Positions 19,486 through 38,941 of a DNA stretch of 55,018 nucleotides are shown here, piece after piece. Both the position numbers and the translations under genes were made by a program. The notes beneath the pieces are model-generated. The model ran no database searches. It had not been told where the DNA came from and was given only the letters and a program-made list of their open reading frames with translations. Source of the stretch: Hoeflea sp. (GTDB lineage Bacteria; Pseudomonadota; Alphaproteobacteria; Rhizobiales; Rhizobiaceae); the NCBI RefSeq assembly GCF_030682515.1, contig NZ_JAUXOD010000076.1, positions 1 to 55,018 on the forward strand, written 5' to 3'. Position 1 is the stretch's first letter. The number at the start of each line of letters is the position of its first letter.

Positions 19486-19647
19486 GTGACCGTGACCGCG
19501 CGTCCGGCCGATCAGCTTTTCGTGATGCGGTGATCTCGTCTGCCGTTCTTTTCATCGATCCCTCAATTTGTTAGGGTCAGTTCACAAAGAGTGAAGTGAT
19601 TTGAACGCGCGGTCCTCCGGGCCCGCGCAAAACAGTCTGGGTTGGGC

Positions 19648-21540: not shown

Positions 21541-21646
21541 CTCCAGGACGAAGGTGGACGGCCGAGCCGGATGGGCTCCCGACATAGATCCGAGCGCAGG
21601 GTCGTACTTTCGGCCGATCGGTGACGCTCGCACAGGGGCGGGCGTC

Positions 21647-22381
21647 TCACGGGCCGGTGAGGCCTGATCCGAAGTGGCCCGCATTGGTGTCGGGACCATC
21701 GATCAGCGCGTCGGGGCCCGCCACCGCCTCGAGCAATTTCATGTTGGTGATGATGATGCGCATGCCGTCCATGGCGACGCCATCGGACTGAAGCGACTTG
21801 ATGGCGCGCGAGAAATTCTCGGGCGTCATGCCGAGCAGCGAGGCGAGCAGCCGTTTCTCCATGGGCAGAACGAAGCTGACGGCGTTTCCGGCGATTGACG
21901 ACTGACGGTAGATATAGGCCGCGACCCGCTCCCGCGAGGTGCGCAGTTTCAGGCCCTTGGCGTGGCGCACCACCGAGCGGTAGCAATTGGCGAGTTCCGT
22001 GATCGTCGAGACCGCGAATTCCGGATCGAGCCGGAAGGTCGCCCTCAAATCCTTGGACGGAATCATGATGATGCGCGATTTCTCCACCGTGCGCGCCGAC
22101 ATCAGATAGGGCGCGTCCTTGATGCAGGCGGCAAGGATGAAGGTCGACACCGGCCTCACCACCGCCATGGCGGTTTCGCGGTCACGCCATCCGGAAAACA
22201 GCTCGACCGTGCCTTCCATGACGATGTGCAGGAAATCCGCCGGCTCGCCCTGGCGGATCAGTTCGAGCTGCGCGGGAAAACTGTGCGCATAGGCCGCCTG
22301 CATCAGCCGCTCGAAATTCTCCGGACTCATGGTCCGGAACAGCAAGAGCTTGCGAATCTCCGGTTTGTCTTCTTCCCGCAT
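21647..22381 (-). CDS. Crp/Fnr-family regulator, likely nitrate-respiration activator
   Basis: The 244-residue protein has a cyclic-nucleotide-binding-like beta roll (about residues 12-135) and a C-terminal winged helix with ERVAAYIYRQ and the recognition helix TPENFSRAIKSL. Glu188, Ser191 and Arg192 form the E-x-x-S-R pattern that in FNR reads TTGAT half sites. The N-terminal cysteine cluster needed for a 4Fe-4S sensor is absent, so it resembles the Dnr/NnrR/NarR group rather than oxygen-sensing FNR. It is divergent from the usp-nar operon and a perfect TTGAT-N4-ATCAA box lies in the gap. Its ATG at 22379-22381 follows GGGGAG. Confidence 0.88.
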   Translation of the reverse strand: MREEDKPEIRKLLLFRTMSPENFERLMQAAYAHSFPAQLELIRQGEPADFLHIVMEGTVELFSGWRDRETAMAVVRPVSTFILAACIKDAPYLMSARTVEKSRIIMIPSKDLRATFRLDPEFAVSTITELANCYRSVVRHAKGLKLRTSRERVAAYIYRQSSIAGNAVSFVLPMEKRLLASLLGMTPENFSRAIKSLQSDGVAMDGMRIIITNMKLLEAVAGPDALIDGPDTNAGHFGSGLTGP

Positions 22382-22541
22382 GTCGTTTCTCCCCCGATCC
22401 CGACTTGCCGAGCGTCATTTCAAATACACGCAATTGCTCGCACATGAATTGATATTTGTCACCCGTCGGATTGATGCATTTGGCCGTTCAGGCCGATCAA
22501 AGACAAATCCGGTTCGATTGTGCAGTGCCACGCAAATCCGT

Positions 22542-22555
22542 TTGATCTGCATCAA
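22542..22555 (+). promoter_or_regulatory. FNR-type box upstream of the usp-nar operon
   Basis: TTGAT-CTGC-ATCAA is a perfect anaerobox. Its centre is 84 bases before the usp ATG, leaving room for a promoter with the activator at about -41. The nearby Crp/Fnr gene, transcribed away from it, encodes a protein with the matching recognition helix. Confidence 0.85.
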
Positions 22556-22632
22556 CGAGACGGCGCCTCCGGCATGGATTTTCTCCGCCAACAGGTCTGC
22601 AAGCGCAGGCCGATTGTCGGAGACCACAGCCC

Positions 22633-23121
22633 ATGCACCTCATGCTTGCCTATGATCATTCGCGGAACTCAAGGATCGCGCTGGACGCGGTGATCGGGAT
22701 GTTCGGGCCTCTCAAGCCCACCGTCACGCTGATTTCGGTGATCGAGGATGTGGCCAGCGCCACCGCTGGCGCGGACGACATGTTCAACGAGCAGTTCGCC
22801 GCGCAGAAGGCCGGGACGGAGGCTGCGGCCGCCGAACTGAACGCCCACGGATTTACCGCAAAGGTCATGCTCGCCGACGGCGATGCGCGCAAGATGATCC
22901 TGCGCGCCACCGAAGAGAAGAAACCGGACCTCCTGGTCATGGCCCGCCACAGCCACCAGCCCGACACCGGTCCGCTGGGCTTCTTCACCAAGCGTCTGGA
23001 CGCGCTGGTCGAGGAGTTCGACCACATGACCTTCGGCTCGGTGTCGGCCTTCCTGGCGCGGCGGGTGAAATGCCCGCTGCTGATCATTCCCACCCATTCA
23101 CAGCCCCAGGCTGACAAGTGA
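22633..23121 (+). CDS. Universal stress protein, UspA family
   Basis: The 162-residue single-domain protein has the UspA fold pattern: MHLMLAYDHSRNSRIALDAV at the amino end, TVTLISVIEDV, then PDLLVMARHSHQ and, at the end, FGSVSAFLARRVKCPLLIIP. The ATP-binding Gly-rich loop is only partly recognisable. It is the first gene after the FNR-type box and precedes narK1 by 15 bases, so it is induced together with nitrate respiration. Usp genes under Anr/FNR control help survival without oxygen in pseudomonads; the same role is inferred here. Confidence 0.87.
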   Translation: MHLMLAYDHSRNSRIALDAVIGMFGPLKPTVTLISVIEDVASATAGADDMFNEQFAAQKAGTEAAAAELNAHGFTAKVMLADGDARKMILRATEEKKPDLLVMARHSHQPDTGPLGFFTKRLDALVEEFDHMTFGSVSAFLARRVKCPLLIIPTHSQPQADK

Positions 23122-23136
23122 TTCAAGGACGTCACC

Positions 23137-24783
23137 ATGCAAGTCTCTAGTCTCTTCCGGGTTCGGAACAAGGAAATCCAGGCGCTGCACCTGACCTGGA
23201 TCGCCTTCTTCATCTGCTTCTATGTCTGGTTCAACATGGCCCCGCTGGCCTCGTCGATGCTGGCCTCGGCCGACTGGCTGACCCGCGACGACCTGCGCCT
23301 GTTTGCCATCGCCAATGTCGCGCTCACCATTCCCGCGCGCATCCTGGTCGGCATGGCGCTCGACAAATGGGGCCCGCGCCGGGTGTTCTCGGTGCTGATG
23401 GTGTCGATGGCCATCCCGACCTTCGTCTTCGCCTTCGGCGACACGCGCGAGCAGCTCTTCGTCTCCCGCCTCGTGCTGTCCTCGGTCGGCGCCTCCTTCG
23501 TCGTCGGCATCCACATGACGGCGCTGTGGTTCAAGCCGCGCGACATCGGCTTTGCCGAAGGTTTCTACGCCGGCTGGGGCAATTTCGGCTCGGCAGCCGC
23601 GGCGATGACCATCCCGACGATCGCGCTGCTGGTCTATGGCGGGCCTGACGGCTGGCGCTGGGCCATCGCCACATCGGGCGCGGTCATGGGCGCGTACGGC
23701 GTGTTCTACTGGTTCGCCATCACCGATGGTCCGCACAAGGACAGCCACAAGAAGCCGCGCAAGGCCTCGGCGCTCGAGGTCTCGAGCTGGCGCGACCTGG
23801 TGCTGCTGTGCATCTTCACCGTGCCGATGGTCGGCGTTCTGTCGATCGTCGTCTACCGCCTGCAGCTGATGGGCTATGTCGACGGCATGACGGCTGCGAT
23901 CTGCTACGGCGCCATCGCGGTGATCGTGGTCTATCAGGTCTGGCTGGCCATCAAGGTCAATGTGCCGCTCCTGAAGAAGGGCATCCCCGAGGACGACCGC
24001 TATCCGTTCTCCTCGGTCGCTGCGCTCAACCTGACCTACTTCGCCAATTTCGGCGCCGAACTCGCCGTCGTGTCGATGCTGCCGATGTTCTTCCAGGAAA
24101 CCTGGGGCCTGACCGCGGTGGCGGCGGGGATGATCGCCTCGACCTTCGCCTTCGTCAACCTGTTCGCCCGGCCGATGGGCGGCCTCGTCTCCGACCGTAT
24201 GGGCAACCGGCGCTTCGTCATGCTCGCCTACATGTTCGGCATCGGCGTCGGCTTCGCGCTGATGGGCCTGATGAACTCGAGCTGGCCGCTGATCATCGCC
24301 ATCGCCATCACCATCGGCTGCTCTTTCTTCGTGCAGGGGGCGGAAGGCGCCACGTTCGGCATCATTCCCTCGATCAAGCGCCGGGTGACCGGGCAGATCG
24401 CGGGCATGGCCGGCGCCTACGGCAATGTCGGCGCGGTCGTCTACCTCTTCATCTTCATGTTCGTCGACTCCTCGACCTTCTTCCTCATCATCTCGGCCGG
24501 CGCCTTCCTGAGCTGGGCTGTCTGCTGGATGTGGCTCAAGGAGCCAGAGGGCGGCTTCGACGAGGAATATGTCCTCTCCTCGGTCGATCACGCCATCGCC
24601 GCCGAAGCCAGGGTCAAGCGCGAGACGGAAGCCGAAATCACGCGCCTGTTCGCCGGCAGCCACAAGGTCGAGCTCGCCGATCGCGGCGCCGGCCTGACGC
24701 TGACGGCGCGGTTCAGGGACATGGACGAACTCCAGCAGGTGGTTGGCCGGCTGAAACAGACAGCCGAACCCAGCCGGACCTGA
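23137..24783 (+). CDS. narK: NarK1-type nitrate transporter (MFS)
   Basis: This 548-residue protein has about twelve membrane helices and the nitrate-signature region GFAEGFYAGWGNFGSAAAAMT, characteristic of type I NarK (proposed nitrate/proton symport). The conserved arginines that bind nitrate in NarK family members would lie in helix 2 (TIPARILVGM) and helix 8. A 75-residue soluble tail after helix 12 (from DEEYVLSSVDHA) exceeds the usual length and is not seen in the second transporter. AAGGA precedes the ATG. It would import nitrate for NarG. Confidence 0.9.
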   Translation: MQVSSLFRVRNKEIQALHLTWIAFFICFYVWFNMAPLASSMLASADWLTRDDLRLFAIANVALTIPARILVGMALDKWGPRRVFSVLMVSMAIPTFVFAFGDTREQLFVSRLVLSSVGASFVVGIHMTALWFKPRDIGFAEGFYAGWGNFGSAAAAMTIPTIALLVYGGPDGWRWAIATSGAVMGAYGVFYWFAITDGPHKDSHKKPRKASALEVSSWRDLVLLCIFTVPMVGVLSIVVYRLQLMGYVDGMTAAICYGAIAVIVVYQVWLAIKVNVPLLKKGIPEDDRYPFSSVAALNLTYFANFGAELAVVSMLPMFFQETWGLTAVAAGMIASTFAFVNLFARPMGGLVSDRMGNRRFVMLAYMFGIGVGFALMGLMNSSWPLIIAIAITIGCSFFVQGAEGATFGIIPSIKRRVTGQIAGMAGAYGNVGAVVYLFIFMFVDSSTFFLIISAGAFLSWAVCWMWLKEPEGGFDEEYVLSSVDHAIAAEARVKRETEAEITRLFAGSHKVELADRGAGLTLTARFRDMDELQQVVGRLKQTAEPSRT

Positions 24784-24867
24784 CCACAGCTCCGGCGCCT
24801 GCCGGACCTCACACCAATTCATCGACCGGAGGCCAGGCCTCAGGGTCCGACACAAGGAGTAACTGGA

Positions 24868-26250
24868 ATGAACGCGATTACCTCGAAGGGGCCTGTGCTG
24901 ACCGACTGGCGGCCCGAAGATCAGCAGTTCTGGGAGAGCACGGGCCGCAGCATCGCCCGCCGCAATCTCTGGATCTCGGTGCCCTGCCTGCTTCTGGCCT
25001 TTGCAGTCTGGATGGTCTGGTCGGTGGTGGTGGCGCGTCTGCCCGCCATCGGGTTCGATTTCACCACCGGGCAGCTGTTCTGGCTCGCGGCCCTTCCGGG
25101 CCTGTCCGGGGCGACGCTGCGCATCTTCTACAGCTTCGTCGTGCCGATCTTCGGCGGCCGCCGCTGGACGGCGATCTCCACCGCCTCGCTGCTGATCCCG
25201 GCACTCGGCATCGGCTTTGCGGTGCAGGATCCCGAAACGCCCTATTCGGCCTTTGTCATCCTGGCGCTGCTCTGCGGCTTCGGCGGCGGCAACTTCGCCT
25301 CGTCGATGTCCAACATCAACTATTTCTTCCCCAAGGCGCAGAAGGGCAACGCGCTGGCCATCAATGCGGGCCTCGGAAATCTCGGCGTGTCGGTGGTGCA
25401 GTTCGTGGTTCCCGTGGTCATCACCATGGGCGTGTTCGGCGCGATGGGCGGCCAGTCGCAGACGATCAGCGACGGCGGCGAGCTCTGGCTGCAGAACGCC
25501 GGCTTCATCTGGGTACCGTTCCTGGTGTTCTTCACCATTGCCGCCTGGTTCGGCATGAACGACCTGGCCGACGCCAAGGCCAACCTGTCCGACCAGCTGT
25601 CGATCCTCAAGCGCAAGCACAACTGGATCATGTCGCTCCTCTATGTCGGCACCTTCGGCAGCTTCATCGGCTATTCGGCGGGCTTCCCGCTCTTGATGAA
25701 AACCCAGTTCCCCGAAGTCAACGCCTTGTCCTACGCCTTCCTGGGCCCGCTCGTGGGCGCGCTGTCGCGGGTCGCGACCGGCTGGATCTCCGACAAGTTC
25801 GGCGGCGGACGGGTCACGCTGTGGACATTCCTGGCGATGATCGTCGCGGTCATCGGCGTGCTGCAGTTCCTGCCGCTCGGCGGTTCGGAAGGCCATTTCT
25901 GGGGCTTCTTCGCCTGCTTCATGGCGCTGTTCTTCCTCACTGGCGTCGGCAATGCGTCGACCTTCCAGATGATCCCGGTGATCATGCGCAAGGAAATCCC
26001 GCGGCTGATGCCCACGCTTGACCAGGCTTCCCAGCTCAAGACCGCCGAGCGCGAGGCCGGGGCCATCATCGCCTTCACCTCGGCGATGGCAGCCTACGGG
26101 GCGTTCTTCATCCCGAAGTCCTACGGCACCTCGATCGCGCTGACCGGCGGGCCGGCCGCAGCTCTCTACGCCTTCGCCGCCTTCTACGCGGTCTGCGTGG
26201 TGCTGACCTGGTTCTTCTACACCCGCCGCGGCGCCGCAACGGCCTGCTGA
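24868..26250 (+). CDS. narK: NarK2-type nitrate/nitrite antiporter (MFS)
   Basis: The 460-residue protein equals E. coli NarK in length and has its nitrate signatures: GGGNFASSMSNINYFFPKAQ (helix 5) and the LGNLGVSVVQFVVP segment, with SGATLRIFYSFVVPIFGGRR around helix 2 containing the substrate arginine. These mark type II NarK, nitrate/nitrite exchangers. AAGGAG lies upstream of the ATG. The tandem of types I and II, sometimes fused in other denitrifiers, primes import by proton symport and continues by exchange of the nitrite product. Confidence 0.93.
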   Translation: MNAITSKGPVLTDWRPEDQQFWESTGRSIARRNLWISVPCLLLAFAVWMVWSVVVARLPAIGFDFTTGQLFWLAALPGLSGATLRIFYSFVVPIFGGRRWTAISTASLLIPALGIGFAVQDPETPYSAFVILALLCGFGGGNFASSMSNINYFFPKAQKGNALAINAGLGNLGVSVVQFVVPVVITMGVFGAMGGQSQTISDGGELWLQNAGFIWVPFLVFFTIAAWFGMNDLADAKANLSDQLSILKRKHNWIMSLLYVGTFGSFIGYSAGFPLLMKTQFPEVNALSYAFLGPLVGALSRVATGWISDKFGGGRVTLWTFLAMIVAVIGVLQFLPLGGSEGHFWGFFACFMALFFLTGVGNASTFQMIPVIMRKEIPRLMPTLDQASQLKTAEREAGAIIAFTSAMAAYGAFFIPKSYGTSIALTGGPAAALYAFAAFYAVCVVLTWFFYTRRGAATAC

Positions 26251-26326
26251 GACGGGCCACCCGACACACGGCGCGGGCCGGACGAAACGGCCCGCCCCCC
26301 TTAAAAAACAAGCCGAGGATTCACCA

Positions 26327-29300
26327 ATGAGCCATCTTCTTGATCGCCTCAACTTCTTCGCCAGCAATCGCGTCGACACCTTCTCCAACGGCCATGGCGA
26401 GACCACCATGGAAAGCCGCGACTGGGAAGACGTCTACCGCAATCGCTGGCGGCACGACAAAATCGTCCGTTCCACCCATGGGGTGAACTGCACCGGCTCA
26501 TGCTCCTGGAAGATCTATGTCAAGTCCGGCGTCGTTACCTGGGAGACCCAGCAGACCGACTATCCGCGCACGCGGCCGGAACTGCCCAATCACGAGCCGC
26601 GCGGCTGCGCCCGCGGCGCCAGCTACAGCTGGTATCTCTATTCCGCCAACCGGGTGAAGACGCCGCTGGTGCGCGCCCGGCTGATGAAGATCTGGCGCAG
26701 GCTGCGCGAGACCCAGTCGGCGATCGAGGCCTGGACGACGATCCAGTCGGATCCCGCGCTGCGCGCCGACTACGTCACCAAGCGCGGCAAGGGCGGCTTC
26801 GTGCGCGCCTCCTGGGAGGAGGCGACCGAAATCACCGCCGCCGCCAATGCCTATACCGCGAAAAAGTACGGCCCCGACCGGGTGTTCGGCTTCTCGCCGA
26901 TTCCCGCCATGTCGATGGTCTCCTATGCGGCCGGCTCGCGCTATCTCAGCCTGCTCGGCGGCACCTGCATGTCGTTCTACGACTGGTATTGCGACCTGCC
27001 GCCGGCCTCGCCGCAGACCTGGGGCGAGCAGACCGACGTGCCGGAATCGGCAGACTGGTACAATGCCGGCTTCTTGATCCTGTGGGGCTCGAACGTCCCG
27101 CAGACGCGCACGCCCGACGCCCATTTCTACACCGAGGCGCGCTACCGCGGCACCAAGTCCGCCGTCATCTGCCCGGACTACTCGGAAGCATCCAAATTCT
27201 CCGACATCTGGCTCAATGCGAAGCAGGGCACCGACGCCGCACTCGGCATGGCCTTCGGTCACGTGATCCTCAGGGAATTCCATCTCGACCGGCAGGCCGA
27301 GTATTTCGAGGACTATTGCCGGAAATATTCCGACATGCCGATGCTGGTCGAGCTCGACAAGCGCGGCGGCTCCTACATCCCGGGCCGGCAGCTGCGCGCG
27401 GCCGATTTCGCCGAGAATCTCGGCCAGGACAACAATCCCGACTGGAAGACCGTCGGCATCGATGAGGCGACGGGCAACGTGGTGGTCCCCAACGGCTCGA
27501 TCGGCTTCCGCTGGGGCGAGAACGGCAACTGGAACCTCGAGGAAAAGGCCGCGGGCGCTTCGGTCAAGCTGCGCATGAGCCAGATCCTCGACACCGATCA
27601 CGACGCGATCGTGGGCGTCGAGTTTCCCTATTTCGGGGGTGCGGCCACCAACGGCTTCGAGGTCTGCGACCATCCCGACGTGCTGACCCGCAACGTGCCG
27701 GCCCGCAAGATCAAGCTCGCCAATGGCAAGACCGCGTGGGTCGCCACTGTGTTCGACCTGTTCTGCGCCAATTACAGCCTCGACAGGGGCCTGGGCGGCG
27801 GCAATGTCGCCAGCTCCTATGATGACGATGTGCCGTTCACCCCGGCCTGGGCCGAAAAGATCACCGGTGTGCGCCGCGACAAGATCATCCAGGTGGCGCG
27901 CGAATTCGCCGACAATGCCGAGAAGACCAACGGCAAGTCGATGATCATCATCGGCGCGGCGATGAACCACTGGTACCACATGGACATGAACTACCGCGCC
28001 GTCATCAACATGCTGGTGATGTGCGGCTGCGTCGGCCAGTCGGGTGGCGGCTGGGCGCATTATGTCGGCCAGGAGAAGCTCCGGCCGCAGACCGGCTGGG
28101 CACCGCTGGCGTTTGCGCTCGACTGGGCGCGTCCGCCGCGGCACATGAACTCGACCTCGGCCTGGTACGCGCACTCCAACCAGTGGCGCTACGAGACGGT
28201 GACGGCAGCCGAGATCCTGTCGCCGACCGCGCCCGAAGGCGACTGGAAGTCCTTGAGCCTGATCGACTACAACATCCGTGCCGAGCGCATGGGCTGGCTG
28301 CCGTCGGCACCCCAGCTCAAGACCAACCCGCTTGAGGTCGGCCGCGCCGCCAAAGCGTCGGGCCAGGAGGTGGCGGCCTATGTCGCCGAACGCCTGAAAT
28401 CGGGCGAGCTGGAAATGAGCTGCCAGGATCCGGACGCGCCGGAAAACTGGCCGCGCAACCTGTTCATCTGGCGCTCCAACCTCTTGGGCTCCTCGGGCAA
28501 GGGGCACGAGTATTTCCTCAAGCACCTGCTCGGCACCGATCACGGCGTCCAGGGGAAGGATCTGGGCCAGGAGGGACGGCAGAAGCCGATCGAGGCCAAA
28601 TGGCACGAGGAGGCGCCGGAAGGCAAACTCGACCTCTTGGTCACCATCGACTTCCGCATGTCGACCACGGCGGTCTATTCCGACATCGTGCTGCCGACAG
28701 CGAGCTGGTACGAGAAGGACGACATGAACACGTCCGACATGCACCCGTTCATCCACCCGCTGCAGGCGGCGGTGGACCCGGCCTACGAGAGCAAGACGGA
28801 CTGGGAGATCTTCAAGGCGATCGCCAAGACGTTCTCCGAGATCGCGCCCGAGATCCTCGGCGTGGAGACCGATGTGGTGCAGCTGGCGCTGCACCACGAC
28901 ACGCCGTCGGAGCTGGCGCAGCCGCAGGTGCTCGACTGGAAGCTCGGCGAATGCGACCTGATTCCGGGCAAGACGGCGCCGGGCTACATCGCGGTCGAAC
29001 GCGACTATCCCAACATCTACAAGCGCTTCACCTCGCTTGGGCCGCTCATGGACAAGGTCGGCAATGGCGGCAAGGGGATCACCTGGGACACCAAGACCGA
29101 GGTGCATCACTTGAAGGCGCTCAACGGCGTGGTGACGGAGGAGGGCGTTTCCCACGGCCTCGCCCGGATCGACACGGCCATCGACGCCTGCGAGGTCATC
29201 CTGATGCTGGCGCCCGAGACCAATGGCGAGGTCGCGGTCAAGGCCTGGGATGCGCTGGGCAAGCACACCGGCATCGATCACCGGCACCTGGCCGAATCCA

Positions 29301-30073
29301 AGCGGGACGAGAAGATCCGCTTCCGCGACATCGCGGCGCAACCGCGCAAGATCATCTCGTCGCCGACCTGGTCGGGGATCGAGAGCGAGGAGGTCTGCTA
29401 CAATGCCGGATGGACCAACGTGCATGAGCTGATCCCCTGGCGCACCGTGACGGGCCGGCAGCAGCTCTACCAGGACCACAAGTGGATGCGGGCCTTCGGC
29501 GAGTTCTTCGTCACCTGGCGTCCGCCGGTGGATCTCAAGACCGTCGGGCCGGAGATCAACATCTCCGCGCGCGACAGCGAGCCGCATGTGGTGCTCAACT
29601 TCATCACGCCGCACCAGAAATGGGGCATCCACTCCACCTATTCGGACAATCTGATGATGCTGACGCTCAACCGCGGCGGCCCGGTGGTGTGGATTTCCGA
29701 GGTCGACGCCCGCAAGGCCGGGCTCGTCGATAATGACTGGGTCGAGGTCTACAACACCAACGGCGTGCTGACGGCGCGCGCGGTGGTGAGCCAGCGGATC
29801 AAGGAAGGCACGCTGTTCATGTACCACGCCCAGGAAAAGATCGTGAACACGCCGGGATCGCAGATCACCGGCCAGCGCGGCGGCATCCACAATTCGGTGA
29901 CCCGCGCCACGCTCAAGCCGACCCACATGATCGGCGGCTACGCCCAGCTCTCCTACGGTTTCAACTACTACGGAACCGTGGGCTCCAATCGCGATGAATT
30001 CGTCATCGTCCGCAAAATGACAAAGGTCGACTGGCTGGACCGCCCGGCCGCCCAAGTGGAGGCAGCAGAATGA
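26327..30073 (+). CDS. narG: Respiratory nitrate reductase alpha subunit NarG
   Basis: NarG reduces nitrate to nitrite at a Mo-bisMGD centre on the cytoplasmic side of the membrane. The 1248-residue protein has the length and motifs of E. coli NarG: the FS0 cluster ligands His51, Cys55, Cys59 and Cys94 ([10 protein letters not shown] ... RGCARGAS), the Mo-Asp region [20 protein letters not shown] near residue 218, and the C-terminal [19 protein letters not shown] block. There is no twin-arginine signal cleavage site, as expected. It overlaps narH by four bases. Confidence 0.98.
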   Translation: [1248 protein letters not shown]

Positions 30074-31593
30074 AAATCCGCGCACAAATCGGCATGGTGC
30101 TCAATCTCGACAAATGCATCGGGTGCCATACCTGTTCCGTCACCTGCAAGAATGTCTGGACCAGCCGAGAAGGCGTCGAATACGCCTGGTTCAACAACGT
30201 CGAGACCAAGCCCGGCATCGGCTACCCGAAGGACTGGGAGAACCAGAAGCGCTGGAACGGCGGCTGGACCCGGTCGAAATCCGGCAAGCTGCAGCCCAAG
30301 CAAGGCGGCAAATGGCGGATTCTGGCCAATATCTTCGCCAATCCGGACCTGCCCGAGATCGACGATTTCTACGAGCCGTTCGATTTCGACTACGACCATC
30401 TGAAGTCGGCGCCGGAGATGGAGGCGTTCCCGACCGCGCGTCCGCGCTCGAAGATCACCGGAAAGCGCATGGAAAAGATCGAATGGGGTCCGAACTGGGA
30501 GGAAATCCTGGGCGGCGAATTCGCCAAGCGCAGCCAGGACCAGAATTTCGAGGGCATCGAGAAGGAAATCTACGGCGAATACGAAAACACCTTCATGATG
30601 TATCTGCCGCGGCTGTGCGAGCACTGCCTCAACCCGTCCTGCGTGGCCTCGTGCCCATCGGGCGCGATCTACAAGCGCGAGGACGACGGCGTCGTGCTGA
30701 TCGACCAGGAGAAGTGCCGCGGCTGGCGCATGTGCGTCTCGGGCTGCCCCTACAAGAAGATCTACTACAACTGGGAAAGCGGCAAATCGGAGAAGTGCAC
30801 CCTGTGCTATCCGCGCCTGGAATCAGGCCAGCCGACGGTCTGTTCGGAAACCTGCGTCGGCCGCATCCGCTATCTGGGCGTCATGCTCTATGACGCCGAC
30901 AAGATCTCCCAGGCCGCGGCGACCGAGAACGAGAAGGATCTCTATGACGCCCAGCTCGGCGTCTTCCTCGATCCCAACGATCCCGAAGTGATCAAGGCGG
31001 CGCGTGCGGAAGGCATTCCGGAGGACTGGATCAAGGGCGCGCAGAGATCGCCGGTGTGGAAGATGGCGATGGAGTGGAAGATCGCGTTTCCGCTGCATCC
31101 CGAATACCGCACCCTGCCGATGGTCTGGTACGTGCCGCCGCTCTCGCCGATCCAGAACGCGGCGGAAGCCGGCGCCATCGCGTCGATCGACAACATGCCG
31201 GATGTCCGCTCGCTCCGGATCCCGGTGCGCTACCTCGCCAACATGCTGACCGCCGGCGACGAGCCGCCGGTGATCGCGGCGCTGGAACGGATGATGGCGA
31301 TGCGCGCCTACATGCGCTCCAAGACCGTCGACGGCGTGATCAATCTCGGCGTCGCCAAGCGCGTCGGGCTCACGCCGCAGCAGATCGACGAGATGTACCA
31401 GCTGATGGCGATCGCCAACTACGAGGACCGTTTCGTCATCCCGACGACGCACCGGGAGCTGGTCGAGGACGCCTATGACCTCAAGTCCGGCTGCGGCTTC
31501 ACCGACGGCAATGGCTGCTCGTCGGGCGTGTCCAAGGGCAAATTGTTCGGCGGCGGCAAGAGCTTCCGCTCACCCACGGAGTTCCTGTCATGA
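30070..31593 (+). CDS. narH: Respiratory nitrate reductase beta subunit NarH
   Basis: The 507-residue electron-transfer subunit carries four cysteine groups: CIGCHTCSVTCKN near residue 16, CEHCLNPSCVASCPSG, CRGWRMCVSGCP and CTLCYPRLESGQPTVCSETC. In the third group a tryptophan replaces one cysteine, giving the one 3Fe-4S and three 4Fe-4S clusters known in NarH. It passes electrons from NarI hemes to the FS0 cluster of NarG. Its ATG overlaps the narG stop and its stop overlaps the narJ ATG. Confidence 0.98.
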   Translation: MKIRAQIGMVLNLDKCIGCHTCSVTCKNVWTSREGVEYAWFNNVETKPGIGYPKDWENQKRWNGGWTRSKSGKLQPKQGGKWRILANIFANPDLPEIDDFYEPFDFDYDHLKSAPEMEAFPTARPRSKITGKRMEKIEWGPNWEEILGGEFAKRSQDQNFEGIEKEIYGEYENTFMMYLPRLCEHCLNPSCVASCPSGAIYKREDDGVVLIDQEKCRGWRMCVSGCPYKKIYYNWESGKSEKCTLCYPRLESGQPTVCSETCVGRIRYLGVMLYDADKISQAAATENEKDLYDAQLGVFLDPNDPEVIKAARAEGIPEDWIKGAQRSPVWKMAMEWKIAFPLHPEYRTLPMVWYVPPLSPIQNAAEAGAIASIDNMPDVRSLRIPVRYLANMLTAGDEPPVIAALERMMAMRAYMRSKTVDGVINLGVAKRVGLTPQQIDEMYQLMAIANYEDRFVIPTTHRELVEDAYDLKSGCGFTDGNGCSSGVSKGKLFGGGKSFRSPTEFLS

Positions 31594-32282
31594 TCCGCAC
31601 CTTCAAGGCCCTTTCGGCACTGCTGAGCTATCCCTCCACCGATCTGCAGGAGGCCATTCCCGACATCCGCGAAATCCTGGCCTTCGAAAAAGTCCTGCCG
31701 GTCGAGGCGGTGGTGGCTATGGAGCCGCTCTTGAGCGAGTTCCAGACCGGCGACATCTTCGACCTGCAGGAGCGCTACGTGCTCCTGTTCGACCGGTCGC
31801 GGACCCTGTCGCTCAACCTGTTCGAGCACATCCACGGCGAGGGCAGGGACCGCGGCGGGGCGATGGTCGACCTGCTCGAGACCTACCGGGCGCACGGCTT
31901 CGACCTGGTCGCGACCGAGCTGCCCGATCATTTGCCGGTGCTGCTCGAGTTCATCTCGACGCTGCCGCTTGACGAGGCGCGCGAGATGCTCATCGACGCG
32001 GGCCACATCATCGCGGCGCTGGCTGAACGGCTGACCCGGCGGGAGACGCCCTATGCGGCTGTGCTCACCGCGCTGTCGGACTTCGCCCAGGCGTCGATCT
32101 TGACCGAGGAGGCGCAGGTGCTGATCTCGGAAAAGGACGACGACCCCGAGGATCTCGATGCGCTCGACGCGGTCTACGAGGAGGCCATGGTCACCTTCGG
32201 ACCCGACCCGAACGCCGGCTGCCCGGTCAGCCGCGACATTCTTGCCCGCATGGACGCGCCGCTCCGGCCGGCTACAGCCTGA
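31590..32282 (+). CDS. narJ: Nitrate reductase assembly chaperone NarJ
   Basis: The 230-residue protein belongs to the TorD/NarJ chaperone group. MIRTFKALSALLSYPS at the start, FDLQERYVLLFDRSRTLSLNLFEHIHGEGRDRG and PDHLPVLLEFISTLP are its conserved blocks. It binds the NarG N-terminus, allows insertion of the molybdenum cofactor and FS0, and is not part of the final enzyme. The start overlaps the end of narH by four bases, so translation is coupled. Confidence 0.96.
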   Translation: MIRTFKALSALLSYPSTDLQEAIPDIREILAFEKVLPVEAVVAMEPLLSEFQTGDIFDLQERYVLLFDRSRTLSLNLFEHIHGEGRDRGGAMVDLLETYRAHGFDLVATELPDHLPVLLEFISTLPLDEAREMLIDAGHIIAALAERLTRRETPYAAVLTALSDFAQASILTEEAQVLISEKDDDPEDLDALDAVYEEAMVTFGPDPNAGCPVSRDILARMDAPLRPATA

Positions 32283-32300
32283 CACGAAAGGACGTGAATC

Positions 32301-33002
32301 ATGGACTATTTTCTCTTCGGAGTGCTTCCCTATCTGGCGCTGACCGTGCTGGTGGTCGGCTCCATCGCGCGCTACGAGCGCGACCCCTTCACCTGGAAAT
32401 CCTCGTCGAGCCAGCTTCTGCGCCGCAAGCAACTGGTCTGGGGCTCGGTCCTGTTCCATGTCGGTGTGCTGATCGTGTTCTTCGGGCATCTGGTCGGCAT
32501 GCTGATGCCGGCGGAGATCTTCCACCTGATGGGCATGAGTTACGGCTTCAAGCAGCTGCTCGCCATCGTCGTGGGTGGCGTGGCCGGCGCCATGGCGCTG
32601 GTCGGCGGCGCCATGCTGTTGCACCGGCGGCTGTTTGACGACCGGATCCGGGCCAATTCCTCCTTTGCCGATACCGGCATCCTGGTCCTGCTCGTGGCCC
32701 AGCTGGTGCTCGGAATGGCGACGATCCTGGCCTCGATACAGCATCTGGATGGCGGCGAGATGATCAAGTTCATGGGCTGGGCCCGCGGCATCTTCACCCT
32801 GCAGGCAGGGGCCTGGGAACTGGTGGCCGACGTGCACTGGATCTACAAGCTGCATATCCTGCTCGGCCTCATCATCTTCATCGTGTTCCCGTTCACCCGG
32901 CTGGTGCACATGTTCTCGGTGCCGGTGCGCTATGTCCTGCGCCCGGGCTACCAGATCGTCCGCACCCGCAAGCACAAGGCAGCCCTGGGGCCAAGACCAT
33001 GA
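32301..33002 (+). CDS. narI: Respiratory nitrate reductase gamma subunit NarI
   Basis: NarI is the membrane cytochrome b that oxidises quinol. This 233-residue protein has five hydrophobic helices and the heme ligand pairs His53/His63 (FHVGVLIVFFGHLVG) and His185/His203 (YKLHILLGL ... TRLVHMFSVP), with the spacings of E. coli NarI. The C-terminal region YVLRPGYQIVRTR is also conserved. It starts 18 bases after narJ and its stop overlaps the following PPIase gene by four bases. Confidence 0.97.
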   Translation: MDYFLFGVLPYLALTVLVVGSIARYERDPFTWKSSSSQLLRRKQLVWGSVLFHVGVLIVFFGHLVGMLMPAEIFHLMGMSYGFKQLLAIVVGGVAGAMALVGGAMLLHRRLFDDRIRANSSFADTGILVLLVAQLVLGMATILASIQHLDGGEMIKFMGWARGIFTLQAGAWELVADVHWIYKLHILLGLIIFIVFPFTRLVHMFSVPVRYVLRPGYQIVRTRKHKAALGPRP

Positions 33003-33793
33003 AACAGACCTTCACCGACATCTCCGTCAACGGCGAGGCCATCTCGCCCGAACTCATCGCCACGGAAGCGCAGAACCACCGTGCGCCCAAGGGCAAGCCC
33101 GGCATGGCCTGGATGGCGGCGGCCCGCGCGCTCGCCGTGCGGGCACTGATCCTGCAGGAGGCCGCGCGGCGCGGACTTGCGGCCGAACCCGCGGAACTCG
33201 CGCCCGGGCTCTGGGAGACCGAGGACGACGCGCTCGTCCGCCAGGTTCTCGACGAGGCGGTGACGCCCGAGGCGCCGACGCCCGCGTCCGTGCGGGCAGC
33301 CTATGACGCCAATCCGGAACGGCACCGCGCGCCCTCGCTCTATGAAGCGGCACATATCCTGTTCGCCGCCCGGCCCGACGACGTCGTGGCGCGCAAGATA
33401 GCCAGGGACCAGGCCACCGCGGTGCTCGCCAAGGTGAAGACCGAGCCCAAGGCCTTCGACGCGCTGGCGCGGGACCATTCGGCCTGTTCCTCGCGCGCCG
33501 ATGGCGGCAGGCTGGGACAGATCTCGACCGGCGACACGGTGGCCGAATTCGAGGCGGCGCTTGGCCTGCTCGCTCCGGGCGAGATCGCGGCCGAGCCGGT
33601 GGAGAGCCGCTACGGCTTCCACATCATAAGGCTCGACGCCAGGGCCCCGGGCGAGATCCTGCCGTTCGAGGCGGTGGAAACCGCGCTGCGGGTGGCGCTC
33701 GAAAAGGCCGCCTGGGTCCGCGCCAGCCGCGCCTTCGTCGATGGCCTGGCCGAGAAGGCCGAGGTCACCGGCATCTCGCTCAAGGCGGCGTGA
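32999..33793 (+). CDS. PpiC-type peptidyl-prolyl isomerase of the nar operon
   Basis: The 264-residue protein has a parvulin domain in the second half (YEAAHILFAARPDDVVARK, the GGRLGQISTGDTV loop, and ESRYGFHIIRLDAR), preceded by a helical SurA/PpiC-like region. It has no signal peptide, so it probably works in the cytoplasm. The ATG overlaps narI (ATGA), which makes it the last gene of the nar operon. Similar parvulins follow narI in other denitrifying bacteria, where a role in maturation of the enzyme has been proposed; here it is inferred from position. Confidence 0.88.
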   Translation: MKQTFTDISVNGEAISPELIATEAQNHRAPKGKPGMAWMAAARALAVRALILQEAARRGLAAEPAELAPGLWETEDDALVRQVLDEAVTPEAPTPASVRAAYDANPERHRAPSLYEAAHILFAARPDDVVARKIARDQATAVLAKVKTEPKAFDALARDHSACSSRADGGRLGQISTGDTVAEFEAALGLLAPGEIAAEPVESRYGFHIIRLDARAPGEILPFEAVETALRVALEKAAWVRASRAFVDGLAEKAEVTGISLKAA

Positions 33794-33897
33794 GCCGATC
33801 CACTCTTTCCGGTCGCGGCGAAAACTGGTCGCGATCGGGGCTTTGATTTCCACCGGGGGCAAGCGTAATCTCGTCCCGGGACATCAGGAGCATGATC

Positions 33898-34410
33898 ATG
33901 GCATTGGCATTTGTCAGAACCACCGAGCGCGGACTGACCGACCGGCTGTTGTGGACTTTCGCGGACAGCCTGCAGGCGGACGGCTTCCGGCTCGCGGGCG
34001 TGGTGCAGACGAATTCCGACCGGCCCGGCTCGCGTCACTGCGACATGGATGTGCGGGTGCTGCCCGATGGCCCGGTGATCCGCATCAACCAGGTGCTGGG
34101 CGAGGAATCCCGCGGCTGCCGGCTCGATCCGGCGGCGCTCGAGGAGGCGGTGGCGCTGGTCGAGGCGGCGCTCGATCCGGCGCCCGATCTCCTGATCATC
34201 AACAAGTTCGGCAAGCACGAGGCCGAGGGCAGGGGCTTCCGGCCGCTGATCGGCGAGGCGCTTGCGCGCGACATCCCGGTTCTGCTCGGCGTCAACGCGC
34301 TCAACCAGGCGGGTTTCGAAGCGTTTGCGGGCGACTATGCCGAGGAACTCGCCGCCGACAGTGCAGGCCTTGCTGCCTGGTTCGACGGCTTGCGGCTGCA
34401 GGCCGCCTGA
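33898..34410 (+). CDS. DUF2478 (putative NTP-binding) protein
   Basis: The 170-residue protein fits the DUF2478 family, small proteins often found beside molybdate transport or molybdoenzyme genes. Recognisable parts are LADSLQADGFRLAGVVQTN near the start (read here as FADSLQADGFRLAGVVQTN), MDVRVLPDGPVIRINQ, ESRGCRLDP, and PDLLIINKFGKHEAEGRGF, which resembles a P-loop NTPase core lacking a clear Walker A motif. GGAG at 33887-33890 sets the start at ATG 33898; an ATG six bases earlier is too close to it. It stands between the nar operon and ldh. Confidence 0.72.
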   Translation: MALAFVRTTERGLTDRLLWTFADSLQADGFRLAGVVQTNSDRPGSRHCDMDVRVLPDGPVIRINQVLGEESRGCRLDPAALEEAVALVEAALDPAPDLLIINKFGKHEAEGRGFRPLIGEALARDIPVLLGVNALNQAGFEAFAGDYAEELAADSAGLAAWFDGLRLQAA

Positions 34411-34429
34411 GGCGCGGCTTACACTCGGT

Positions 34430-34443
34430 TTGATCTCTGTCAC
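34430..34443 (+). promoter_or_regulatory. Near-match FNR-type box upstream of ldh
   Basis: TTGAT-CTCT-GTCAC differs from TTGAT-N4-RTCAA only in the last bases (C for A at one conserved position plus the flank). It starts 90 bases before the ldh ATG, almost the same distance as the perfect box before usp (91 bases). The match could be chance; its repeated spacing supports it. Confidence 0.45.
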
Positions 34444-34468
34444 ATTCCGCTGGCATGGTGTTTGCTAG

Positions 34469-35452
<984 letters not shown>

Positions 35453-35459
35453 GGCGTCC

Positions 35460-36407
35460 TCAGATCTCGCTCGTTACCACCCCCTCCAGAATCTCGTCCG
35501 CCGTCTGCTTCGAGCACAATTGTGTAGCCGGCGTCATGACGGCCGAACCGGCTGCGGCGACGCCGTGGCGGACGGCGTCGCGGAAGCTGTTGCCGGCTGC
35601 GAGTTGCAGGGCGATGGCCGCGACCATGCTGTCGCCGGCGCCGACCGCGCTCAGGGTCTTGATCAGCGGTGGCTGGCAGAAGAAGCGCTCTTCAGTCGAG
35701 ACGCCGACAGTGCCCTTGGAGCCGATCGACATCACCAGTTTTTCAGCCGCGCCGCTTGCGATCAGCTGCAGGCCGTAATCGGCAAGGGAGGCGGGCGTGG
35801 CGAAGCTGCGGCCCGAGACTTCGGTCGCTTCGGCGCCGTCCATTCTGAGCAGCGCAAACGGCGGACCCGGGTTCTGGGCGGCGCTGACCAGCGCATCGCC
35901 CGAGGTGTCTAAGATCAGGCGCGCGCCCTGGTCGATCGCCAGCCTGTTGATCGTGTTGCCGATATCGGCGGGCACCCCGGCGGGCACGCTGCCCGACATC
36001 ACCACGAGACGGCCTTGCGTCAGATGCGGCTTGAGGGCGACAAGCAGCGCGTCGGTCTGCTCCGGCGGCCAGCCGGGTCCGGGCAGCTGGAACCGGTACT
36101 GCTTGCCGGTCGAGGTCTCGACCACGGCCATGGACTGGCGGGTGTTGCCCACCACCGGGAAGTGGATCGGCTCGATGCCCTCGGCCTTGAGCATCGACAG
36201 CGCCATGAGGCCGGTTTCGCCGCCAAAGGCGACAAAGGCCTCCGACTGGCCGTCAAGCCGCAGGATGGCGCGGCTGACATTGACGCCGCCGCCGCCGGGA
36301 TCGTAGCGCGGTTCGTCACAGCGCAGTTTCGCGCCGGCAACCACCGCGTCGACCGAGGTGGCCACGTCCAGGGCAGGGTTGAGTGTGATGGTCAGGATCT
36401 GGATCAT
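35460..36407 (-). CDS. pfkB: 6-phosphofructokinase 2 (PfkB/ribokinase family)
   Basis: This 315-residue kinase has the PfkB signatures: TLNPALDVATSVD at the amino end, the YDPGGGGVNVSRAI substrate loop, and the catalytic region SAVGAGDSMVAAIALQL with the base Asp in GAGD, followed by HGVAAAGSAVMTPATQLCS, which closely parallels E. coli Pfk-2. The ATG at 36405-36407 is preferred; an in-frame GTG/ATG lies slightly upstream. It follows ppsA after 61 bases on the same strand, so both are probably in one transcript although they act in opposite directions of glycolysis. Confidence 0.88.
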   Translation of the reverse strand: MIQILTITLNPALDVATSVDAVVAGAKLRCDEPRYDPGGGGVNVSRAILRLDGQSEAFVAFGGETGLMALSMLKAEGIEPIHFPVVGNTRQSMAVVETSTGKQYRFQLPGPGWPPEQTDALLVALKPHLTQGRLVVMSGSVPAGVPADIGNTINRLAIDQGARLILDTSGDALVSAAQNPGPPFALLRMDGAEATEVSGRSFATPASLADYGLQLIASGAAEKLVMSIGSKGTVGVSTEERFFCQPPLIKTLSAVGAGDSMVAAIALQLAAGNSFRDAVRHGVAAAGSAVMTPATQLCSKQTADEILEGVVTSEI

Positions 36408-36468
36408 GGGCCGGACCATCACACAAGGTGCCGCGCGATTTCAATCGGTTTGGCTCGGATTTTTCGGA

Positions 36469-38859
36469 TTATTTTCCGGCCTTTTCCGCCTCTGCCACGT
36501 TCTGCTTGACGGCGACGAAACTGTCGGGCGTCACCGAGATCGTGTCGATGCCGGCGCGCACCAGGATCTTGGCGAAAGCCGGGTCGTTCGACGGCGCCTG
36601 GCCGCAGAGTCCCACCTTGGCGCCGGCCGCGTGGGCCCTTTCGATCAGTGTCTCGATCATCCAGATCACCGCCGGGTCGGACTCGCTGAACAGGTCCGCC
36701 AGGTCGCCCGAATCGCGGTCGACACCCAGCGTCAACTGGGTCAGGTCGTTCGAGCCGATGGAGAATCCGTCGAACCGCTCGGCGAATTCGGCAGCCCGGA
36801 TGACGTTGGAGGGGATCTCACCCATCACATAGACCTGCATGCCGTTTTCGCCGCGCTTGAGGCCGTTTTCGGCCATCACGGCCAGCACCTTGTCGGCCTC
36901 GCCGGGCGAGCGGCAGAAGGGAATCATGACCACGACATTGTCGAAGCCCATCTCCTCGCGCAGCATCTTGATCGCCTTGCATTCAAGCGCGAAGCCGTCC
37001 CGGTAGCGGTCGGAATAGTAGCGCGAGGCGCCCCTGAAGCCGATCATCGGGTTTTCCTCGTCGGGCTCGAAGGCGCGCCCGCCCAGAAGCTCGGCATATT
37101 CATTGGTCTTGAAATCGCTCATCCGCACGATCACGGGCTTGGGGTAGGCGACGGCTGCGATGCGCGACAGTCCGCGGGCGAGCGTCTCGACGAAATAGTC
37201 GGACTTGTTGGCGTAGCGCCGGGTGAGCTCGGCGATCTTCTCCTTCGCGTCCTCGTCCTTGAGCGTGTCGAAATTGACGAGCGCCATCGGGTGGACCTTC
37301 ACGGCCGAATTGACCACGAATTCCATCCGCGCCAGGCCCACGCCATCGGCGGGCAGGCGCCACCAGCGGAACGCCGCCGACGGATCGGCGAGGTTGAGCA
37401 TGATTCTGGTCTTTGTCTCAGGCACATGGTCGAGGCGCACATCCTCGACCTCGTAATCGGCGATGCCTTCATAGATCGCGGCTTCCTCGCCGCCGGCGCA
37501 GGAGACCGTTACCTCCTGCAGATCGTGCAGGATCTGGGTGGCAGTGCCGGTGCCGACAATGGCCGGCAGGCCCAGTTCACGGCTGACGATGGCGGCATGG
37601 GAGGTGCGCCCGCCATGGTCGGTGATGATCGCCGCCGCCCGCTTCATGATCGGCACCCAGTCGGGGTCGGTGGTCGACGTGACCAGGATCGAGCCATCGA
37701 CGAACTTGTCGATGTCTTTGGCGTTCTCGATCAGGCAGACCCGGCCCGCCTTGACCGCGGACCCGACGCTGAGGCCCGTGAGCAGGATCTTGCCGGCTTT
37801 CTTGATGGTGTAGGTCTTGAGCGCGGTGACATCGGCGCGCGACTGCACGGTTTCGGGCCGTGCCTGGACGATGTAGAGCTTGCCGGTCTCGCCATCCTTG
37901 GCCCATTCCATGTCCATTGGCTGGCCGTAATGCTCTTCGATGGTCGCGGCCTGGCGGGCAAGGGAGAGGATTTCCTCGTCGGACAACACATAGGCCCGGC
38001 GTTCGGCCTTCGAGGTGGGCACGTTCTTGGTCTCGCCGCCTTCAGCCCCCGCGTAGATCATCTTGATCTCCTTGGCGCCGCAGGTCTTCTCCACGATCGG
38101 CTTGAGGGCGGGGTTGGAAAGCAGCGGCTTGAACACCTGATATTCGTCGGGCGTCACTGCGCCCTGGACCACATTCTCGCCCAGGCCCCAGGCCGCGTTG
38201 ATCAGCACCACCTTGTCGAAGCCCGATTCGGTGTCGATGGAAAACATCACGCCAGAGCCGCTGATGTCGGAGCGCACCATCAGCTGCACGCCGATAGACA
38301 GCGCCACCTGGTTGTGGTCGAAGCCCTGGATCTTGCGGTAGGTGATCGCCCGGTCGGTGAACAGCGAGGCGTAGCAGCGGCGGCAGGTCGACAAGAGCGC
38401 CGCCTCGCCGCGGACATTGAGATAGGTCTCCTGCTGGCCGGCGAAGCTCGCGTCGGGCAGGTCCTCGGCGGTGGCCGACGAGCGGACCGCGACCGAGAGG
38501 TCGGTATGGCCGGTGCGTTGGGAAAGCTCGCGGTAGGCCGCCACGATCGCCGCGCTGATGTCTTCGGGAAAATCGCCCGCGATGATGGCCTCGCGAACGG
38601 CCTTGCCGGTCTCGGCCAGCGTGCGCTTGCCGCGTTCCAGCATGGTCATCGCGTCGGCGATCACGTCATTGAGCTTGTTGGCCTTGATGAAGGCGCGGAA
38701 GGCGTCGGACGTGGTGGCGAAGCCGGGCGGCACGTCGATGCCCTTGCTCCCCAGCTGCTGGACCATTTCGCCCAGGGAGGAGTTCTTGCCGCCCACGAGG
38801 CCGACGTCGCCGCGCGACAGATCTTCAAACCAGATGACGTTCTTGTTGGCTGCGGACAT
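36469..38859 (-). CDS. ppsA: Phosphoenolpyruvate synthase
   Basis: PpsA converts pyruvate and ATP to PEP, AMP and phosphate. The 796-residue protein matches the family length. It has the N-terminal ATP-grasp part (GLVGGKNSSLGEM, AVRSSATAEDLPDASFAGQQETYLNV), the phospho-histidine domain GGRTSHAAIVSRELGLPAIVG, and the C-terminal PEP-binding barrel with MIPFCRSPGEA, IGSNDLTQLTLGVDRDS and LCGQAPSNDP, including the active-site cysteine. GGAGGG stands before the ATG at 38857-38859. A perfect anaerobox in class II position to a TATAGT element precedes it, which indicates control by an Fnr-type activator. Confidence 0.96.
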   Translation of the reverse strand: MSAANKNVIWFEDLSRGDVGLVGGKNSSLGEMVQQLGSKGIDVPPGFATTSDAFRAFIKANKLNDVIADAMTMLERGKRTLAETGKAVREAIIAGDFPEDISAAIVAAYRELSQRTGHTDLSVAVRSSATAEDLPDASFAGQQETYLNVRGEAALLSTCRRCYASLFTDRAITYRKIQGFDHNQVALSIGVQLMVRSDISGSGVMFSIDTESGFDKVVLINAAWGLGENVVQGAVTPDEYQVFKPLLSNPALKPIVEKTCGAKEIKMIYAGAEGGETKNVPTSKAERRAYVLSDEEILSLARQAATIEEHYGQPMDMEWAKDGETGKLYIVQARPETVQSRADVTALKTYTIKKAGKILLTGLSVGSAVKAGRVCLIENAKDIDKFVDGSILVTSTTDPDWVPIMKRAAAIITDHGGRTSHAAIVSRELGLPAIVGTGTATQILHDLQEVTVSCAGGEEAAIYEGIADYEVEDVRLDHVPETKTRIMLNLADPSAAFRWWRLPADGVGLARMEFVVNSAVKVHPMALVNFDTLKDEDAKEKIAELTRRYANKSDYFVETLARGLSRIAAVAYPKPVIVRMSDFKTNEYAELLGGRAFEPDEENPMIGFRGASRYYSDRYRDGFALECKAIKMLREEMGFDNVVVMIPFCRSPGEADKVLAVMAENGLKRGENGMQVYVMGEIPSNVIRAAEFAERFDGFSIGSNDLTQLTLGVDRDSGDLADLFSESDPAVIWMIETLIERAHAAGAKVGLCGQAPSNDPAFAKILVRAGIDTISVTPDSFVAVKQNVAEAEKAGK

Positions 38860-38900
38860 GGGGCCCTCCGAGGCAGTGTGTGACGTTTGGACGAGACGCC

Positions 38901-38941
38901 ACTATAGGAGGCGAGGTCGCTTGCGCTTTGATGTGCGTCAA
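38901..38941 (-). promoter_or_regulatory. FNR-type class II promoter of ppsA
   Basis: TTGAT-GTGC-GTCAA at 38928-38941 matches TTGAT-N4-RTCAA exactly. On the minus strand a -10 element TATAGT (38906 to 38901) follows it. With transcription starting about seven bases beyond that element, the box centre falls at about -41, the standard place for class II activation. No -35 hexamer is needed in such promoters. Confidence 0.75.

Follow-up and report, generated by a model that had tools for sequence, protein, structure and literature searches.

We describe a segment (positions 21,647 to 38,941) of a 55,018-nucleotide contig of Hoeflea sp. (NZ_JAUXOD010000076.1; the whole contig is the window referred to below) in which a regulator of the Crp/Fnr family, a nitrate respiration (nar) block, and the genes for L-lactate dehydrogenase (ldh), a PfkB-family kinase and phosphoenolpyruvate (PEP) synthase (ppsA) lie side by side, with a box resembling an FNR binding site before each of the nar, ldh and ppsA transcription units. 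The boxes before ppsA and ldh are widely conserved in the genus and are retained in two genomes that lack both the regulator and nar, and we read the segment as two modules, probably independent of one another. The features are as follows (coordinates in the window, strand, description; nt, nucleotides):

19642–21540, plus strand: ldt, an L,D-transpeptidase (YkuD), which adjoins ldh where the nar block is missing
21647–22381, minus strand: narR-type Crp/Fnr regulator (NCBIfam: FtrB), with ENFSR and without an N-terminal cysteine cluster
22449–22462: asymmetric Fnr-type box TTGATATTTGTCAC, in the part of the divergent promoter nearer narR
22542–22555: perfect Fnr-type palindrome TTGATCTGCATCAA before usp-narK1-narK2-narGHJI-ppiC, starting 91 nt before usp
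22577–22582, plus strand: possible −10 element GATTTT, 21 nt past the usp box; a weak −10 match, in a block conserved in 5 of 5 genomes
22633–23121, plus strand: usp (Pfam Usp)
23137–24783, plus strand: narK1 (slightly under the cut-off of TIGR00886)
24868–26250, plus strand: narK2 (over the cut-off of TIGR00886)
26327–30073, plus strand: narG (TIGR01580)
30070–31593, plus strand: narH (TIGR01660)
31590–32282, plus strand: narJ (TIGR00684)
32301–33002, plus strand: narI (TIGR00351)
32999–33793, plus strand: ppiC-like peptidyl-prolyl isomerase (Pfam Rotamase)
33892–34410, plus strand: DUF2478 gene, which ends the nar block, between ppiC and ldh
34430–34443, plus strand: asymmetric Fnr-type box TTGATCTCTGTCAC before ldh, with two mismatches, starting 90 nt before ldh
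34466–34471, plus strand: −10-like TAGGAA with an extended TGC, 22 nt past the ldh box
34520–35452, plus strand: ldh, L-lactate dehydrogenase (over the cut-off of TIGR01771)
35460–36422, minus strand: PfkB-family kinase (over the cut-off of TIGR03168)
36469–38859, minus strand: ppsA, PEP synthase (over the cut-offs of TIGR01418 and PRK06464)
38901–38906, minus strand: −10-like TATAGT, 21 nt past the ppsA box
38928–38941, minus strand: Fnr-type box before ppsA-pfkB, TTGATGTGCGTCAA on the forward strand and TTGACGCACATCAA in the sense of ppsA

The genes are as a preliminary description of this DNA had given them, and the family models confirm its narGHJI calls; the DUF2478 gene and the narR-side box were missing from its account. 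The kinase, there called Pfk-2, does belong to the expected family, but its identity as Pfk-2 is not settled, the protein scoring above the threshold for TIGR03168, a general hexose-kinase model, and below that for PRK10294 (6-phosphofructokinase II). The box before the usp-nar genes is the perfect palindrome that had been reported, and the ldh box also lies where it had been placed. The ppsA box, described as perfect as well, is present but carries one mismatch to the FNR palindrome, its start lying 82 nt before the ATG. A GTGAC half, which resembles a CRP-type half site, is common to the box on the narR side and that of ldh (both TTGAT-N4-GTCAC), and boxes near narR are present in many relatives too.

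Sites with up to two mismatches number 29 in the window against a mean of 11.2 in shuffled sequence, and none of 100 shuffles reached that count. Within the 17-kb stretch we find two near-perfect sites (at most one T-to-C change, that is, TTGAT-N4-RTCAA or TTGAY-N4-ATCAA) where the shuffle mean is 0.032, with two or more in 0 of 500 dinucleotide shuffles; for asymmetric sites (TTGAY-N4-GTCAC, either strand) the corresponding figures are two against 0.044, with two or more in 1 of 500. When the last 150 nt were shuffled in two-base blocks, a box of its own type appeared in 0.04% of cases for ppsA and 0.01% for ldh. Together with the conservation in the genus presented below, these counts rule out a chance origin of the boxes. 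FNR activators in the class II position have the centre of their box near −41, and the boxes before ppsA and ldh are likely laid out in this way, judged by their spacing to the −10-like elements; a predicted centre near −41 makes activation the more likely direction of control.

We examined conservation in a genus set of 18 genomes, which includes our own genome and whose members, being related, do not count as independent events. An orthologue of ppsA (at least 89% identity) occurs in 14 of the 18, and all 14 carry TTGAY-N4-RTCAA before it, starting 82–88 nt ahead of the start codon; a close ldh orthologue (at least 85%) likewise occurs in 14 of the 18, and 12 of these, the exceptions being G005 and G006, carry TTGAY-N4-GTCAC, starting 88–94 nt ahead of the start. 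The perfect palindrome before usp recurs in each of the five genus genomes that gave a usp match. The preliminary description had staked its proposal on the conservation of the ppsA and ldh boxes in relatives, and on this point it was right.

The boxes also stand out from their surroundings: information content is 1.82 bits per specified position in the ppsA box versus 0.39 and 0.80 in the 20-nt flanks before and after it (14 rows), and 1.90 in the ldh box versus 0.53 upstream and 0.84 downstream (12 rows, chosen for having the box). The TATAGT-like hexamer of ppsA follows 21 nt past the box (22 nt in G015 and G017), and the extended TGC-TA element of ldh 22 nt past its box, with a CTA invariant across the 12 rows. 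Among the ppsA boxes, nine are of the type TTGAC-ATCAA, four TTGAT-GTCAA and one TTGAC-GTCAA. None is a perfect palindrome; exactly one half is TTGAC in 13 of 14 genomes, with the side switching (nine and four), and both halves are TTGAC in one. Such a pattern may mean that the ppsA box is held at intermediate affinity. One could suppose that the boxes of ppsA and/or ldh do not function as Fnr sites at all and have been kept by descent or for some other reason, since the ldh box is two bases off consensus and missing from two orthologues, and two ppsA homologues outside the family lack a box. We find this hardly credible in view of the conservation peak amid less conserved flanks, the nearly fixed distance to a −10-like element, and the finding that the TTGAC half of the ppsA box may stand on either side.

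The regulator, transcribed divergently from usp-narK1-narK2-narGHJI-ppiC, consists of a cNMP_binding and an HTH_Crp_2 domain with the recognition helix LGMTPENFSR. Its first 60 residues contain no cysteine, and it thus lacks the N-terminal cysteines by which FNR and FnrL, with their [4Fe-4S] cluster, are recognized; the preliminary description, which had given it an E-x-x-S-R motif and no Fe-S cysteines, was accurate here. The NCBIfam model NF006901 (FtrB) scores 317.3 bits on it, over the curated cut-off of 211, and the Caulobacter FtrB model 215, under its cut-off of 300. Other Hoeflea records hold proteins 91, 83, 83, 82 and 78% identical to it, and an alphaproteobacterial bin one at 85%. 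The regulator is also 59–60% identical to a protein encoded beside narK-narG-narH on replicons of Paracoccus pantotrophus and P. denitrificans, where the records lack annotation, so that the gene names there come from tblastn and the label NarR from position and literature. In a tree with long branches in other parts, it falls into a clade of 12 rows (support 99/98) that contains three Paracoccus rows and neither of the FnrL copies of its own genome.

We kept 80 of 145 related regulator loci found, several of them cut short. All 80 encode E-x-x-S-R, in 77 the 350 bp ahead of the regulator include a site that matches at 9 or more of 10 positions, and the neighbours include a narG-like gene in 68 and a narK2-like gene in 73. 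On the nar side these loci cover no more than 10 kb, which does not reach as far as ldh, and they are thus silent on linkage outside the genus. Within the genus, a NarR relative (at least 50% identity) occurs in 14 of 18 genomes; G001, G008 and G013 gave no match, and the sole match in G005 is weak and falls on part of a different Crp/Fnr protein. The same four genomes, and no others, lack narG, so that narR and narG agree in 18 of 18 genomes (both in 14, neither in 4). By its sequence and its neighbours, the window regulator is a putative NarR-type protein dedicated to nar. In the assembly of G004 the narR relative (locus L175, about 1765–2489) is interrupted, appearing as two adjoining matches in different frames.

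The strains without NarR separate the ppsA and ldh boxes from this regulator. G001 and G013 lack both NarR and nar, yet keep the boxes before ppsA (TTGACAGACATCAA and TTGACGCACATCAA, respectively) and ldh (TTGATGTGTGTCAC and TTGACCCGTGTCAC). The nar block is equally separable from the genes it adjoins here. It sits between ldt and ldh in the window, G003, G004, G014 and G017, with ldt 12–13 kb from ldh, and adjoins ldh in G015, where no ldt was found within the 1.8 kb fetched beyond narR. Elsewhere ldh follows ldt after a gap of 17–234 bp (six genomes: G001, G002, G006, G010, G011 and G013) or with DUF2478 alone in between (G005 and G012; gap about 800 bp), which makes 8 of the 14 genomes with this ldh in which the nar block is absent or reduced to DUF2478 at the ldt–ldh junction. 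A nar block terminated by DUF2478 lies elsewhere in the genome in G002 and G011, and DUF2478 adjoins ppiC in the nar blocks away from ldh of G002, G009 and G011; the nar cluster found elsewhere in G006, G010 and G012 is a more distant relative (narG 79–85% identical), and G009 and G016 have nar and no ldh of this type. G007 is too fragmented for a call on nar–ldh linkage. The lone DUF2478 between ldt and ldh (G012, locus L184; G005, locus L186) looks like the remnant of a lost nar block; the trees of ldh and narG are too weakly supported to show whether the block was gained or lost at this site. The narG of G010 (locus L181, 11276–15009) matches as two overlapping pieces.

These observations bear directly on the model of the preliminary description, in which the local NarR-type regulator runs a single nitrate-linked regulon made up of nar, ppsA-pfkB and ldh. 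Fnr-type boxes do stand at all three promoters within 17 kb, NarR does carry E-N-F-S-R, and 6 of the 14 genomes that possess ppsA have nar and ldh as neighbours. However, the boxes outlast NarR in G001 and G013, five genomes with a box before ppsA have nar at another place (G002, G006, G010, G011 and G012), FnrL-like proteins are found in every genome of the set, and NarR of Paracoccus is seemingly confined to nitrate reduction (PMC3541799). We therefore regard one nitrate-linked regulon under the local regulator as very unlikely: the regulator occurs only together with narG, and the conserved boxes, which that description had noticed correctly, do not follow it. We also reject a single regulon island, because nar and ldh-pfkB-ppsA can occur apart and the boxes persist without NarR.

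Other potential readers are encoded in the same genome. Seven of its proteins exceed the cut-off of HTH_Crp_2. Two FnrL-like ones combine N-terminal cysteines with E-T-V-S-R (a motif checked in these two copies), and the FnrL model, whose strict cut-off is 300, gives one of them 230.6 bits; a third Crp/Fnr protein has several cysteines and E-T-L-S-R, and a fourth H-T-V-S-R. FnrL-like proteins are present in 18 of 18 genus genomes. A genome scan for the boxes, as the preliminary description had proposed, gave 45 matches of TTGAT-N4-RTCAA in 4.67 Mb, equal to 31 distinct sites as palindromes are counted on both strands, versus one for the reversed pattern, whose word content differs and which served as the control. 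Two of the 31 lie within 17.3 kb, where about 0.1 would be expected by post hoc arithmetic, and TTGAY-N4-GTCAC gave 30 matches versus 2 for its reversed control. Perfect boxes also lie near ccoN, ccoG, hemN and both fnrL copies; of the genes near the 29 other sites, the family search confirmed only ccoN, ccoG, hemN and one fnrL copy, and the remaining sites, which lack family-search annotation, may in part be intragenic.

Taking these results together, we assign a probability of roughly three in four to the following reading: two independent modules stand side by side, FnrL reading ppsA-pfkB and ldh, and FnrL together with NarR reading nar. The first module, narR-usp-narK1-narK2-narGHJI-ppiC-DUF2478, would be a nitrate respiration block of the NarR type, at whose divergent narR/usp promoter both NarR, without an Fe-S cluster, and the Fe-S protein FnrL would act, by analogy to Paracoccus, with induction by low oxygen plus nitrate or nitrite as the outcome. 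The second, ppsA-pfkB and ldh, would be a module of the genus that is independent of the presence of nar, has one predicted class II Fnr-type box per promoter, and is read mainly by FnrL. If FnrL is indeed the main reader, ppsA-pfkB and ldh would be raised at low oxygen regardless of nitrate respiration; we would guess that such a rise of PEP synthase, the PfkB-family kinase and lactate dehydrogenase serves ATP and redox balancing at the PEP/pyruvate node. The adjacency of nar and ldh-pfkB-ppsA is most likely incidental.

Several points weigh against this two-module reading. The boxes alone cannot assign a reader, because NarR and FnrL both carry E-x-x-S-R, and the match between the GTGAC half of the ldh box and that of the narR-side box is a possible hint of a common reader. 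Only two of the four NarR-less genomes, G001 and G013, put the ppsA box to the test (G008 possesses neither ppsA nor ldh, and G005 lacks ppsA and has an ldh with no box before it), and the boxes retained there could be a sign of recent NarR loss. Within the genus set, the G006 and G007 assemblies are only 77% and 75% complete and that of G012 has 9% contamination, and the ppsA homologues of G040 and G047, outside the family, have no box within 350 nt.

The likeness of the recognition motifs and of the boxes raises the further possibility that FnrL is the main reader everywhere and that NarR, where present, raises ppsA-pfkB and/or ldh further with nitrate or nitrite. In favour of such an overlap, Dufour et al. 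(PMC2908626) state that FNR, FixK and DNR recognize very similar targets; across the genus rows, however, no feature of the ppsA or ldh boxes that we could see by eye tracks the presence of NarR, and we consider the overlap unlikely. A related proposal, that in NarR-positive Hoeflea NarR also acts at inherited FnrL boxes, so that a nar block next to ldh-pfkB-ppsA makes the PEP/pyruvate/lactate node answer to nitrate in addition to oxygen, strikes us as quite improbable; were it true, the types of box (perfect at nar, one TTGAC half at ppsA, TTGAY/GTGAC at ldh) would set the order of response. Under the two-module reading, the predicted low-oxygen Crp/Fnr regulon gains three enzymes in one genus, namely PEP synthase, lactate dehydrogenase and a PfkB-family kinase. 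A comparison of strains that have a local regulator with strains that lack it separates being near the regulator from being read by it, and the graded boxes and NarR-less strains make the assignment of paralogues to boxes directly testable.

Two observations concern the flanks. A 705-residue open reading frame (19582–21699, minus strand) was considered as the left-flank gene and rejected, having no Pfam match and lying antisense to the real ldt gene; this frame yields misleading tblastn matches in relatives. On the other side, a gene for a methyl-accepting chemotaxis protein (39279–41219) adjoins ppsA; in G012 and G014 ppsA has a close copy of this gene as its neighbour, and in G011 the match is weaker.

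The closest known counterpart of the first module is NarR of P. denitrificans and P. pantotrophus, which likewise lacks the Fe-S cysteine cluster, has E-x-x-S-R, and is encoded divergently from narK-narG-narH with Fnr-type boxes in between. The two differ in that usp stands first in the window, the first narK of the window is only about 25% similar to that of Paracoccus, and NCBIfam names the window regulator FtrB. In the literature, Paracoccus NarR senses nitrate or nitrite, nar is jointly controlled by FnrP and NarR, and nitrate reduction is most likely the sole step under NarR (PMC3541799, PMC8139620); for the Hoeflea protein, nitrate/nitrite sensing is suggested by analogy only.

For FnrL, the comparison is with the alphaproteobacterial core regulon of Dufour et al. 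2010 (PMC2908626), which lists ccoN, ccoG, hemN and fnrL as members of the FNR core and gives Hoeflea phototrophica three FNR-group proteins and none of FixK or DNR. Of this core, the cbb3 oxidase, ccoG, hemN and fnrL have boxes nearby here too, whereas ppsA, pfkB and ldh do not appear in the part of the published table available to us and would be an extension at the level of the genus. In a paper on FnrL and Dnr in Dinoroseobacter (PMC5398030), no word beginning with pyruvate or phosphofructokinase was found, and lactate turned up once, for lldD2; ppsA was not searched for there.

The nearest precedent for the second module comes from Bradyrhizobium diazoefficiens, where ppsA (blr4655) is reported to be a direct target of FixK2 through the box TTGACCTGCCTCAA, a targeting validated earlier by in vitro transcription (PMC9104804). 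As proposed here, activation there is of the Crp/Fnr type from a TTGAC-type box, and by locus number pfkB (blr4659; PMC10888616) lies near ppsA, as pfkB and ppsA do in the window. The reader there is FixK2, whereas we propose FnrL, and the two ppsA genes are presumed counterparts. Since ppsA is a FixK2 target in Bradyrhizobium, low-oxygen control of PEP synthase by a Crp/Fnr protein is of a kind already known in the Rhizobiales.

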